Source: Phenylobacterium sp. NIBR 498073 (GTDB lineage Bacteria > Pseudomonadota > Alphaproteobacteria > Caulobacterales > Caulobacteraceae). From it: 64,000 bases of DNA. Below are positions 47,777 to 53,781 of the stretch, in pieces (position 1 is the first letter of the stretch; every line of letters starts with the position of its first letter). The stretch spans positions 1,550,001 through 1,614,000 of the forward strand of contig NZ_CP114599.1 of NCBI RefSeq assembly GCF_027286305.1, read 5' to 3'. Under the pieces are notes generated by a model. The model saw nothing but the letters and a program-made list of their open reading frames with translations, was not told the origin of the DNA and searched no databases. Both the position numbers and the translations under genes were made by a program.

Positions 47777-48889
47777 TCAGCCGGTCAGCACGCCGGAGAT
47801 CGCCTCGAACAGGGCGTCGGCGCGCACCGGCTTGCCGATGTGCCGGTCGGCGCCGGCTTCGGTCGAGGACCTCAGATCATCCGGCGAGGTGTTGGCGCTG
47901 ATCACGATGATCGGCGCGCGGGGCAGGCCGTGGCCCTCGGCCTTGCGGATCGCGCGGATCGCGGTCAGGCCGTCCATCACCGGCATCCGCAGGTCCATCA
48001 GCACCAGGTCGAAGCCGCCGCGCCGCCAGGCCTCGACCGCCTGCTCGCCGTTCTCGACGCTGGTCACCTCCGCGCCGGCCGCACCCAGCATCAGCTCGAG
48101 CACCTTGCGATTGGTCGGGTTGTCGTCGGCGGCCAGGATCCGCAGGGCAGGGGCCTCGCCGTCCTGGATCGGGGCCTGGGCGGCGTCGGTCTCATGCGCG
48201 GCGTCGCCGTAGTCCAGCAGGCCGCCGACAAGCCGGTCGAGCTGGCGCGCCGAGCCCCGGATGTCGGCGATCAGGCCGTGCTGCTCGGCGGTGAGCGACG
48301 TGCGTTCGAGCGCCGCGATCAGGCCCAGGACGCCGTTCAGCGGCGTGCGCAACTCGTGGCTCATGTCGGCGACGAACTCGGTCTTGGCGCGGCTGGCGAC
48401 CTCGGCGCGGTGCAGCGCGTCCTCCAGCGCCGCGGCCTGGCGCTTCATCTCCGTGATGTCGACCCGCAGGCCGATCACCCCGCCGTCGGCGGTGCGCCGT
48501 TCCTCGATCATCAGCCAGCGGCCGTCGGCGAGACGCTGTTCGTGACGCTCGCCGGTGGGGTTCTTCAGCTTGGCCAGGCGCGCAGCCAGCCATTCCTCTT
48601 CGCGACCGACGGCGTCGGGATAGTCGCCGCGGGCGACGCCCGTGCGCAGGGTGTCGGCCAGGGTGACCTGCGACGAGAACAGGTCGGCTGAGCGATGGTA
48701 GATTTCGGCGTAGCGCTTGTTCCAGAGCAGGTAGCGCCCGTCAGCGTCGAGGAAGACGATGCCTTCGGGCAGCAGGTCGAGCGCCTCGCGCAGGCGCTGG
48801 CCGGCGATGACGGCCTGCGCGTTGGCGGCGGCCAGCGCCCGCCCGCCCAGCAGGCGGGCGATCCGTTCCCGAAGTCTGACCTTCGGCAT
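47777..48889 (-). CDS. PAS-HisKA-receiver protein lacking a HATPase domain
   Basis: 370 aa. A PAS (PAS_7-like) domain covers residues ~33-148 (EALDLLPEGIVFLDADGRYL onward). HisKA follows at ~168-228 with the phospho-acceptor His178 in [12 protein letters not shown]. The receiver domain starts at ~249 (RILAADDNPTN), with Asp299 in VLMDLRMPVMDG and the Lys in IGKPVRA. Only about 20 residues separate the two, so there is no ATP-binding domain; the N, G1 and G2 boxes are absent. The open frame is uninterrupted, so this looks like a real architecture. It may serve as a phosphotransfer or scaffold protein. Confidence 0.9.
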   Translation of the reverse strand: MPKVRLRERIARLLGGRALAAANAQAVIAGQRLREALDLLPEGIVFLDADGRYLLWNKRYAEIYHRSADLFSSQVTLADTLRTGVARGDYPDAVGREEEWLAARLAKLKNPTGERHEQRLADGRWLMIEERRTADGGVIGLRVDITEMKRQAAALEDALHRAEVASRAKTEFVADMSHELRTPLNGVLGLIAALERTSLTAEQHGLIADIRGSARQLDRLVGGLLDYGDAAHETDAAQAPIQDGEAPALRILAADDNPTNRKVLELMLGAAGAEVTSVENGEQAVEAWRRGGFDLVLMDLRMPVMDGLTAIRAIRKAEGHGLPRAPIIVISANTSPDDLRSSTEAGADRHIGKPVRADALFEAISGVLTG

Positions 48890-49740: not shown

Positions 49741-49750
49741 CGATTTTTTC

Positions 49751-49774
49751 GTCGCCGGCGTCACAGCCGGCGAC
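49751..49774. promoter_or_regulatory. Perfect inverted repeat over the ECF41 -35 element
   Basis: GTCGCCGGC-GTCACA-GCCGGCGAC has 9-bp arms. It begins 10 bp after the HAD stop codon and encloses the promoter's TCACA. It may be an operator, or a hairpin at the end of the HAD transcript, though no T-run follows. Confidence 0.55.
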
Positions 49775-49785
49775 GCCGGGCCGTC
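49759..49785 (+). promoter_or_regulatory. ECF41-type promoter upstream of the 4-TM/AhpD-like/ECF41 operon
   Basis: CGTCACA (49759-49765), 16 nt, then CGTC (49782-49785). As I recall, the reported ECF41 target motif is TGTCACA-N16-CGTC, so six of seven -35 bases, the spacer and the full -10 agree. The start would be near 49793, 21 nt before the first ATG. Confidence 0.7.
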
Positions 49786-49813
49786 CTTAGGGGCGATGGT
49801 TCGGAGAAATCAC

Positions 49814-50206
49814 ATGTCGCGCATTCTCGTCGGCGCCTTGGCGCTGCTGCTGGGCCTCAACGCCCTGGCCATGCTGTTTGCGTCCTTCTGGTGGTACAAC
49901 GCCGTGCCGGGCGTCATCGCCACCGGCCCCTACAATCCCCATTTCGTCCGTGACATCGGGGCGACCTATCTGGTCGTCGCCGGCGGCTTGGCCTGGTTCG
50001 CCATGAGGCCGGTCCAGGGCTGGCCGGCGCTGGTCGCCGGCGCCGCCTTCCTGGTGCTGCACGCCGCCGTCCACGTGTTCGACGCCAGCTGTTCGGCCGA
50101 TCCGATCGCCGATCTGATCCGCGACCTGCCGGGCGTGTTCGCCCCGGCGCTGATCGCCGCCGCCGTCGCCGTCTTCAACCGCCCCGCCAGGACAGGAGCC
50201 GCCTGA
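49814..50206 (+). CDS. Four-helix membrane protein of unknown function (ECF41 operon, gene 1)
   Basis: 130 aa with four hydrophobic segments (VGALALLLGLNALAMLFASF, IGATYLVVAGGLAWFAM, VQGWPALVAGAAFLVLHAAV, LPGVFAPALIAAAVAVF). The layout resembles small DoxX-like or DUF4345-like inner-membrane proteins. The TGATG overlap with the next gene couples translation. It is the first gene after the ECF41-type promoter, which suggests it is part of the sigma factor's regulon. No Shine-Dalgarno stronger than GGAG is visible. Confidence 0.82.
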   Translation: MSRILVGALALLLGLNALAMLFASFWWYNAVPGVIATGPYNPHFVRDIGATYLVVAGGLAWFAMRPVQGWPALVAGAAFLVLHAAVHVFDASCSADPIADLIRDLPGVFAPALIAAAVAVFNRPARTGAA

Positions 50207-50757
50207 TGCTGAAAGCCCTGCTCGCCCGCCAGATCGGCAAGATGGAACGCCGCTGGGGCTATGACGCCAGCTATCTGCGCCATGTCCTGGCCGCCAATAC
50301 CGCCAGCCTGTTGCGGTTCGGGCTGGTCGGTTCGATGGTCGACGCCAAGGCCGCGCCCGCCTCGGCCATCGCGGCGGCCAAGCTGGTCGGGACCCTGGCC
50401 GAGGACTGCGGACCCTGCACCCAGATCGTCGTCGACATGGCTTCGGCCGGGGGCGTCTCGCCGCAGATCCTGCGCGCCCTGCTGGCGGGCGACGAGGCGG
50501 CGATGGGCGAGGAGGCGGCCCTGGCCTGGCGCTTCGCCCGCGCCAGCCTGGCCCGCGACATGCCCGTCGCCGACCCGCTGCGGGACGAAATCGTCCGCCG
50601 CTGGGGCGACCAGGGGCTGGTGGCGCTGGGCCTCGCCCTGACGACCGCACGCATGTACCCGACGCTCAAATACGCGCTCGGCTACGGCAAGAGCTGTTCA
50701 AAGGTGACCGTGGGCGGCCAGGCCGCTCCGGTGGCCCACGCCACGCTGGCGGCGTAG
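50206..50757 (+). CDS. AhpD/carboxymuconolactone decarboxylase-like protein with CGPC (ECF41 operon, gene 2)
   Basis: 183 aa. The centre has a redox-type CxxC in LAEDCGPCTQIVVDMA (Cys68 and Cys71) within a helical AhpD-like fold. Around it are VDAKAAPASAIAAAKLVGTL and RDEIVRRWGDQGLVALGLAL. AhpD and carboxymuconolactone decarboxylase-like proteins are the usual partners of ECF41 sigma factors. It begins 1 bp into the preceding stop (TGATG) and is followed after 10 bp by the sigma gene. A thiol-peroxidase or disulfide-reducing role is plausible. Confidence 0.8.
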   Translation: MLKALLARQIGKMERRWGYDASYLRHVLAANTASLLRFGLVGSMVDAKAAPASAIAAAKLVGTLAEDCGPCTQIVVDMASAGGVSPQILRALLAGDEAAMGEEAALAWRFARASLARDMPVADPLRDEIVRRWGDQGLVALGLALTTARMYPTLKYALGYGKSCSKVTVGGQAAPVAHATLAA

Positions 50758-50767
50758 GGTCCCGTCC

Positions 50768-51637
50768 ATGGTCGCCGACGTCGAAACCTTCGAGACCCAG
50801 CGCCAGCGCCTGACCCGGCTGGCCTATCGCATGCTGGGCTCGGTCGCCGAGGCCGAGGATGTGGTCCAGGACGCATGGCTGCGCTGGACGCGGACGGACG
50901 AGGAGGTCCGCGATCCCGCCGGCTGGCTGGTGCGGGTGACCAGCCGGCTGTGCATCGACCGTCTGCGCTCGGCCAAGGTTCAGCGGGAGGCCTATCGTGG
51001 CCCCTGGCTGCCCGAGCCGCTGATCGAGGAACTGAGCGTCGATCCGCTCGAGCGGGCCGAGGACGTTTCGGTCGCCTTCCTGTTGGCGCTTGAGCGGCTG
51101 TCGCCGCTGGAGCGGGCGGTGTTCCTGCTGCACGACGTGTTCGACGAGGACTACGCCTCGGTCGCCGAGACCCTGGGACGCAACGAAGCGGCGGTGCGTC
51201 AGCTGGCCGCTCGCGCTCGCACCCACGTCAAGGACAGCAAGCCGCGCTTCAACGTCAGCCAGGAAGACGCGGCCAAGCTCGCCGCCGCCTTCATGGCCGC
51301 GGCCGCCCAGGGCGATATGAAGGCGCTGTCGGCCGTGCTCGCCGAGGACGCGGTGCTGATCTCGGACGGCGGCGGCAAGCGCACTGCGGCGCTGCGGCCG
51401 ATGAGCGGGCGCGAGGACATCATCCGCCTGCTGGAGGGCCTCGCCTGGCGTGCAGGCGGTTCGCCCCTGTGGCCGGTCAGCTTCCGCGCGGTGCGGATCA
51501 ACGGCTATCCCGGCGTGATCATGGAACGCGAGGACGGCCCGATGACGGTGGCGTTCCAGCCGGGGGAGGACGGCAAGCTGGCGGCGATCTACCTGGTGCG
51601 CAATCCCGACAAGCTGGCGCGCCTGCCGACCTCCTAG
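50768..51637 (+). CDS. ECF41-family sigma factor with fused SnoaL-like C-terminal domain
   Basis: 289 aa. Region 2 is residues ~8-75 (RLAYRMLGSVAEAEDVVQDA, VTSRLCIDRLR). The ECF41 linker signature WLPEP is at 80-84, and region 4 follows (YASVAETLGRNEAAVRQLAA). The ~120-residue NTF2/SnoaL-like extension has the group's DGGGK at 200-204 and NPDKL at 279-283. In characterised members this extension acts like a built-in anti-sigma factor and also contacts core polymerase. No separate anti-sigma gene is present, as expected. The operon's promoter matches its own recognition motif. Confidence 0.93.
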   Translation: MVADVETFETQRQRLTRLAYRMLGSVAEAEDVVQDAWLRWTRTDEEVRDPAGWLVRVTSRLCIDRLRSAKVQREAYRGPWLPEPLIEELSVDPLERAEDVSVAFLLALERLSPLERAVFLLHDVFDEDYASVAETLGRNEAAVRQLAARARTHVKDSKPRFNVSQEDAAKLAAAFMAAAAQGDMKALSAVLAEDAVLISDGGGKRTAALRPMSGREDIIRLLEGLAWRAGGSPLWPVSFRAVRINGYPGVIMEREDGPMTVAFQPGEDGKLAAIYLVRNPDKLARLPTS

Positions 51638-52589: not shown

Positions 52590-52710
52590 CGGGAACCTCT
52601 GCTGATTGAAAGACTTGAGCCAGTACCATGGGTCGGTACGAGCTAACCGCGCGAGCGTAAAGGCCGCTTCGCTCCTCCGTCCCGGCGGGCTGTGGATGGG
52701 ATTGGTTTCG

Positions 52711-53781
52711 ATGCAACGGCCGAGCAAGGATCGAGATCCTGCGCCGTTTGTGGTCGGCGACAGTCGGATGATCCGGCTGGTGCGCGAGTTCGACTGGGCG
52801 GCGACGTCGCTCGGCGCGGCTTCCGGCTGGCCGCCCGAGCTCAAGACGATGGTCAACTTCATCCTGGAGTCGCAGTTTCCGGCCGCCATCGTGTGGGGCA
52901 AGGATCTGACGACGATCTACAATGACGCCTTCCTGCCGATCCTCGGCGACAAGCCTGAGGCGCTGGGGCGCTCGTTCGCCGACGTCTGGGCCGAGGTCTG
53001 GGACCAGATCGGACCCATCCTGGATCGCGCCTTCGCGGGCGAGGCTACGTTCATCAAGGACTATCCGTTGATCGTGAACCGTTCTGAGCTGCCTGAGCAG
53101 GCCTGGTTCACCTTCTGCTACAGCCCCTTGCGCCTGGCGAGCGGCGACATCTGCGGCGTGGTCGACACGGTGGTCGAGACCACCGCGACCGTCCGGGCGC
53201 ATGCCGATGTGGACCTCCTGGCCCAGGAGATGAGCCACCGTCTCAAGAACACCATGGCCACTGTCCAGGCGCTGGCCGCCCAGTCGCTGAAGGAGGTGGT
53301 GGAGCGCAGCGTGGTCGAGGAGTTCCTCGATCGCATCGTCACCCTCGGCAACGCGCACGACGTGTTGTTCCGCCAGAACTGGCAGGCAGTGCCGCTGCGC
53401 CGGGTGGCAGAGGCGACGCTGGCGCCGATCGACGGGCTTGGCCAGATCCACATGAAGGGGCGCGAGGTGCAGATCGGCGTGCGCACGACCATGACCCTGT
53501 CGCTGCTGTTGCACGAACTGGCTACCAACGCCGCCAAGTACGGAGCGCTCTCGACGCCGCAGGGCCGTGTCGACCTGGAATGGGGCGTGCGGGCCGGGAC
53601 CTTCCGCCTGCGCTGGCGCGAATGCGGCGGCCCGCCGGTGCGCCCGCCCGCCCATACAGGCTTCGGCTCCCGGCTAATCGACCTGGGGCTCACGCCGGAC
53701 GGCTCGGTGGAGCGGCGCTACGGCGCCCAGGGCGTCGAGGTCGACATCGAAGCGCCTGTGCACGGATTGCTGGATCAGTAA
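52711..53781 (+). CDS. HWE-family sensor histidine kinase with N-terminal PAS-like domain
   Basis: 356 aa; an ATG at 52696 is equally possible. The N terminus is a PAS-like domain of the type seen in light/redox kinases (LESQFPAAIVWGKDLTTIYN ... FTFCYSPLRLASGDICGVVD). The HWE core follows: H-box QEMSHRLKNTMATVQALAAQ, N-box LLLHELATNAAKYGALS and the diagnostic W-x-E in RWRECGGPPV. HWE kinases are common in Alphaproteobacteria and often feed the general stress response. No response regulator or NepR/EcfG genes are nearby. A 121-bp gap lies upstream. Confidence 0.92.
   Translation: MQRPSKDRDPAPFVVGDSRMIRLVREFDWAATSLGAASGWPPELKTMVNFILESQFPAAIVWGKDLTTIYNDAFLPILGDKPEALGRSFADVWAEVWDQIGPILDRAFAGEATFIKDYPLIVNRSELPEQAWFTFCYSPLRLASGDICGVVDTVVETTATVRAHADVDLLAQEMSHRLKNTMATVQALAAQSLKEVVERSVVEEFLDRIVTLGNAHDVLFRQNWQAVPLRRVAEATLAPIDGLGQIHMKGREVQIGVRTTMTLSLLLHELATNAAKYGALSTPQGRVDLEWGVRAGTFRLRWRECGGPPVRPPAHTGFGSRLIDLGLTPDGSVERRYGAQGVEVDIEAPVHGLLDQ

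Follow-up and report, generated by a model that had tools for sequence, protein, structure and literature searches.

A conserved ECF41 sigma factor operon in Phenylobacterium sp. NIBR 498073 and its probable distant target promoters

Introduction

The ECF41 group of sigma factors is widespread, and its signal and its job are obscure. The marks of the group, including the WLPEP motif, and a consensus target promoter, TGTCACA-n16-CGTC, have been published (PMC3426412). In published ECF41 factors the C-terminal extension holds activity down, and its partial removal makes them far more active. Apparently no second protein is needed, and an ECF41 protein moved to a foreign host is still governed by its own C-terminal domain (PMC3426412). 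The ECF41 literature consulted on the group names no inducer for any member. The factors of B. licheniformis, R. sphaeroides and S. meliloti (RpoE9) each showed one target, and look-alike promoters assayed in B. licheniformis gave no response. The window analysed here, a stretch of 64,000 nucleotides from the 4.29 Mb, single-contig genome of Phenylobacterium sp. NIBR 498073, carries a three-gene operon ending in a sigma factor gene of this type. It raises the question of which genes the factor serves and what its two partner proteins contribute.

Results

The third gene of the operon (50768..51637, forward strand) encodes a sigma factor of 289 aa with a fused C-terminal SnoaL-like regulatory domain. 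Its assignment to ECF41, proposed in the initial annotation from three short motifs, was confirmed. Both the sigma2 and the sigma4 region scored above cut-off (PF04542 and PF08281), and the WLPEP motif (residues 80-84) is located in the linker between them and is invariant across 20 homologues. The C-terminal extension of approximately 100 aa carries conserved motifs; most positions of DGGGK (at 200) and NPDKL (at 279) are likewise invariant across 20 homologues. The protein matched the NCBIfam SigJ subfamily model NF007214 with 362 bits (cut-off 271) and M. tuberculosis SigJ (PDB 5xe7) with an E-value of 1.6e-67. As the latter match spans profile positions 4-283, it includes the fused C-terminal domain; the homology to SigJ is thus whole-length, in a comparison of the proteins alone and across different organisms. 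No anti-sigma family match was present at the locus, and the neighbouring gene is AhpD-like by fold only. A fused regulatory domain in place of an anti-sigma gene, as initially proposed, is likely; the 5xe7 match extends over the C terminus, and the Pfam score for SnoaL_2 in this domain taken alone is below cut-off. The factor is the sole ECF41-type sigma factor in this genome.

The first gene (49814..50206, forward strand) encodes a 130-aa protein with four transmembrane segments (4-TM) and weak DUF4345/DoxX-like similarity, and the second (50206..50757, forward strand) a 183-aa protein with a CGPC motif at residues 68-71 and an AhpD/CMD-like predicted fold. The description of the operon as overlapping holds for these two genes, which share 1 nt (TGATG), and not for the sigma factor gene, which starts 10 bp beyond the CGPC stop codon. 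Two kinase-type genes were noted in the vicinity. One (47777-48889, reverse strand) encodes a PAS-HisKA-receiver protein that resembles a histidine kinase lacking its catalytic domain, Pfam having detected no HATPase domain in it. The other (52606-53781, forward strand) encodes a PAS-containing histidine kinase of the HWE family, a class linked to alphaproteobacterial general stress signalling.

An ECF41-type promoter, CGTCACA-N16-CGTC, precedes the operon at 49759..49785 on the forward strand. It consists of a −35 element (CGTCACA, 49759-49765), a spacer of 16 bp and a −10 element (CGTC, 49782-49785). The first ATG (49814) follows 28 nt past the CGTC, and the predicted transcript start falls at approximately 49792-49794. 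The window holds a single copy of the motif, where chance would give 0.08, and the motif takes the same position, with no more than one mismatch, at each of the 20 homologous loci in the family genomes. TGTCACA-N16-CGTC is exact in 18 of these loci, the other two being the window (CGTCACA) and L049 (TGTCACG); the window thus holds a one-base variant of the published target promoter and its relatives the consensus. In a wider scan of 80 loci, the promoter was found at 72, with a 16-bp spacer at 71. Its first base was T in 69 and C in three, so that the C of the window can be regarded as a tolerated variant. The claim of an own-type promoter ahead of the operon was borne out by the sequence and by this conserved position.

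The CGPC gene is present in 20 of 99 family genomes, and in every one of the 20 the sigma factor gene is adjacent and the promoter lies upstream of the operon. Nineteen of these carriers also have the 4-TM gene; in the remaining one (L038) it is cut to 22 codons, with the sigma factor gene and the promoter retained. The wider scan covered loci from Caulobacteraceae and, more rarely, from other Alphaproteobacteria, Nevskia, Myxococcales and Acidobacteria, and recovered all three genes at 66 of the 80. CGPC and sigma factor genes without the 4-TM gene were found at six loci, with the promoter kept at L139/L038 (22 codons left), L166, L173, L176 and L177; the sixth locus is L169. Two acidobacterial loci (L160 and L172) have the 4-TM and CGPC genes without a sigma factor gene, and the remaining loci showed either CGPC without a detected sigma factor gene or an arrangement broken by contig ends. 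In a phylum-wide sample of 398 genomes, 16 encoded the 4-TM protein. All three genes occurred together in 11 of these (L241, L242, L243, L244, L245, L248, L249, L250, L252, L253 and L256), and the 4-TM gene stood alone in three (L246, L254 and L255). At L247 it directly precedes the sigma factor gene, with no CGPC gene. At L251 (G320:C4) the 4-TM and CGPC domains form a single uninterrupted reading frame, with neither a sigma factor gene nor an ECF41 promoter. All 12 loci of this sample that combine the 4-TM and sigma factor genes have the promoter, none deviating by more than one base. The 4-TM gene, which had been called unexpected, proved to belong to the operon regularly in Alphaproteobacteria. 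The conservation of promoter and operon supports the proposed autoregulation, by which the sigma factor would drive its own transcript. The locus represents a known type of system, that of the ECF41 sigma factors, and is an evolutionarily conserved, putative switch for a bacterial stress response.

The second protein had been named as the AhpD-like partner that such operons are expected to contain. At the level of fold, this description stood. The AlphaFold model (pLDDT 94) retrieved the AhpD/CMD fold in all of its best 13 Foldseek matches (probability 0.85-1.0, TM-scores of about 0.54-0.64), with weak E-values of 0.07 to 1.1. Profile comparison with the canonical CMD protein of the same genome aligned CGPC over CAFC (P=1.8e-4, probability 48%). 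Predicted structure, Foldseek and profile comparison agree on an AhpD-like, all-helical fold with a CxxC motif. At the level of Pfam, the description failed: the protein of the window has no PF02627 match, and only five of 20 homologues match, with a best E-value of 0.012. A sequence search against solved structures also returned no match, and matches to Adeno_PIX (Pfam) and BREX PglZ (NCBIfam) were discarded as sub-threshold noise. Members of the AhpD/CMD superfamily (PF02627; 2gmy, 6e8l and Bmp8, 6ohi) thus resemble the CGPC protein in predicted fold and in the position of the CxxC, but the latter remains below the Pfam cut-off and has an additional cysteine, Cys164, which is conserved in its homologues. 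No histidine is invariant across 40 homologues; the canonical CMD has a catalytic one four residues past the CxxC, and peroxidase activity is uncertain because this conserved AhpD histidine is missing. The CGPC protein is not a plain member of the CMD/AhpD family, although its mode of action may resemble that of AhpD-type thiol proteins.

The model of the 4-TM protein consists of four long helices (pLDDT 91), and neither a sequence search against solved structures nor a fold search gave a meaningful match. It resembles DUF4345/DoxX_2 membrane proteins in its 4-TM size and in the weak similarity of some homologues: nine of 19 matched DUF4345 (PF14248) weakly, with a best E-value of 3.5e-4, and some touched DoxX_2 weakly. 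It differs from them in having no Pfam match of its own and in a signature, NxHF(V/I)RDIG, that is conserved among its homologues.

The initial annotation had suggested that this membrane protein signals to the C-terminal domain of the sigma factor. As a sensor it would relay an envelope signal to the SnoaL-like domain, in keeping with its place as the first, co-regulated gene at 66 of 80 loci and with its position immediately ahead of the sigma factor gene at L247, where CGPC is absent. The gene is, however, absent beside intact CGPC and sigma factor genes at L139/L038, L166, L169, L173, L176 and L177, and the 4-TM protein is therefore not a required signal transmitter. It also occurs with CGPC and without the sigma factor at L160, L172 and, as a fusion without the motif, at L251, and the published factors obey their own C-terminal domain, foreign hosts included. 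We consider a sensor role very improbable, and the suggested signalling was not supported. The fusion and the sigma-less pairs place the 4-TM protein on the effector side, together with the CGPC protein, and judged by gene arrangement it is better read as one half of a putative membrane-thiol effector, although L247 demonstrates that the pairing is not obligatory.

A related alternative would make the CGPC protein a redox-sensing anti-sigma factor or co-sensor, anchored by the 4-TM protein. The location of its gene, mostly between those for the 4-TM protein and the sigma factor, would suit such a role, as would the conservation of the CGPC motif and Cys164 and the existence of a natural fusion. 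A sigma factor gene is lacking, however, at that same fusion locus and at several others, L247 retains the sigma factor though CGPC is absent, and co-expression of the CMD protein left the activity of the B. licheniformis ECF41 factor unaltered in published work. We regard this alternative as improbable and retain the candidate effector pair.

The genome contains four exact YGTCACA-N16-CGTC sites, a number close to the expectation from base composition; only placement and conservation are unusual. One is the operon promoter. A second precedes a CMD gene (PF02627; 3446011, forward strand) by 32 nt to the ATG, and a third a PEP_mutase gene (PF13714; 290374-291168, reverse strand) by 28 nt. The fourth (2915487, reverse strand), inside the ribosomal protein L2 gene, was rejected as a chance occurrence. 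All six CMD homologues found among the 20 carriers of the operon are preceded by the motif, which deviates at no more than one base and has a spacing of 15 or 16 bp. The PEP_mutase gene had the motif in six of nine carriers (absent in G022, G059 and G070) and in none of seven operon-less genomes (Fisher p=0.010); other ECF41-like factors occur in four of these seven and are lacking in the other three. Nine further Phenylobacterium genomes hold 19 perfect TGTCACA-N16-CGTC sites, 18 of them ahead of the operon (9), a CMD gene (7) or a PEP_mutase gene (2); since these genomes were picked as operon carriers, the operon sites were expected and the nine distant sites are the informative part. The search for other sites with the promoter motif thus yielded two conserved distant ones. 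The circuit, thought to be complete in itself, does have its own operon and promoter, but it is probably not confined to them.

It could be argued that the operon alone depends on the sigma factor, with the CMD and PEP_mutase motifs being relics or belonging to another regulator. The three published single-target cases would fit this reading, and several carriers have the operon site only. The distant motifs are nevertheless conserved across diverged species and at promoter distance, the PEP_mutase motif is missing where the operon is missing, and no other ECF41 factor is encoded in this genome. We therefore hold the single-target explanation to be unlikely. The rule that the promoter occurs only at the transcript of the sigma factor and its own COE does not describe this genome, and on motif placement and conservation three units are probable targets of the sigma factor: the operon, the CMD gene and the PEP_mutase gene. 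What is new here is this probable set of three, more targets than had been expected of the ECF41 type.

Several further features of these upstream regions were recorded. In P. haematophilum, a second CMD paralogue with 41% identity (L196; G102:C2:805295, reverse strand) also has a perfect ECF41-type promoter. Upstream of the PEP_mutase gene in L091-L099, L221, L223 and L224, a second conserved element (approximately GTCCGnnTTCCGCCAG) lies ahead of the ECF41 site; as it persists where that site is absent, another regulator may act at this gene. At the operon, a perfect 10-bp inverted repeat, CGTCGCCGGC-gtcaca-GCCGGCGACG (49750..49775), surrounds the −35 element. It is reduced to 9 bp in the closest relative (L102), with a paired T-A to C-G change, and is absent from most other relatives. 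Post hoc, the −35 elements of all three ECF41-type sites in the genome were seen to lie within GC-rich perfect inverted repeats (49750-49775; L055, 2444-2468; L056, reverse strand, ~2698-2724), with arms of 10, 12 and 7 bp, respectively. The palindrome at the CMD site is kept in close relatives through paired changes (C-G to T-A in G101, C-G to G-C in G102) and is absent from most other relatives. A general operator was rejected, given that the repeat is missing in most relatives and its centre moves between sites, and so was a classical terminator, since the T run precedes the hairpin instead of trailing it. The repeats possibly overlap a 3'-end hairpin of the preceding gene.

Discussion

We consider it likely, from conserved sequence features, that this ECF41 sigma factor regulates itself and drives a small redox/stress regulon of three target units. 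By analogy with other ECF41 members, the fused C-terminal SnoaL-like domain would restrain the factor when no signal is present, and release would probably occur through a ligand or a redox change sensed by that domain. The released factor would then initiate transcription at TGTCACA/CGTCACA-N16-CGTC promoters. At its own operon, this would supply more sigma factor together with the 4-TM/CGPC effector pair, in which the CGPC thiol protein probably acts at the membrane with the DUF4345-like 4-TM protein. The distant canonical CMD/AhpD-type gene and the distant gene of the PEP-mutase/isocitrate-lyase family would be the second and third targets. The output would fit a response to thiol or peroxide stress best.

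The operon has its nearest described counterparts in RSP_0606-ecf41 of R. sphaeroides and SMb20029-rpoE9 of S. meliloti. They share an alphaproteobacterial ECF41 sigma factor with a fused C-terminal domain, an AhpD/CMD-type gene upstream in the same transcript and the TGTCACA-N16-CGTC promoter. The operon described here differs in its additional first gene for a 4-TM protein and in a diverged CGPC partner outside PF02627. In contrast to the one target of each counterpart, its genome has two distant, conserved, predicted target promoters. An Azospirillum ECF41 factor reportedly affects motility, so the restriction to a single target may not hold throughout the group. Wecke et al. drew hypothetical genes with the promoter near some ECF41 genes (PMC3426412), and a gene of the 4-TM type may therefore be among them, unnamed.

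We lean towards the fuller description of an ECF41 factor whose multi-unit regulon would deploy a new membrane-thiol couple (4-TM and CGPC proteins, sometimes fused), a canonical AhpD protein and an enzyme of the PEP-mutase family. For a widespread group with an obscure signal and job, the predicted three-unit regulon offers read-outs and candidate substrates. The 4-TM/CGPC pair, of which a natural fusion exists, adds a new candidate membrane-linked thiol enzyme, and its biochemistry may show what the sigma factor senses.
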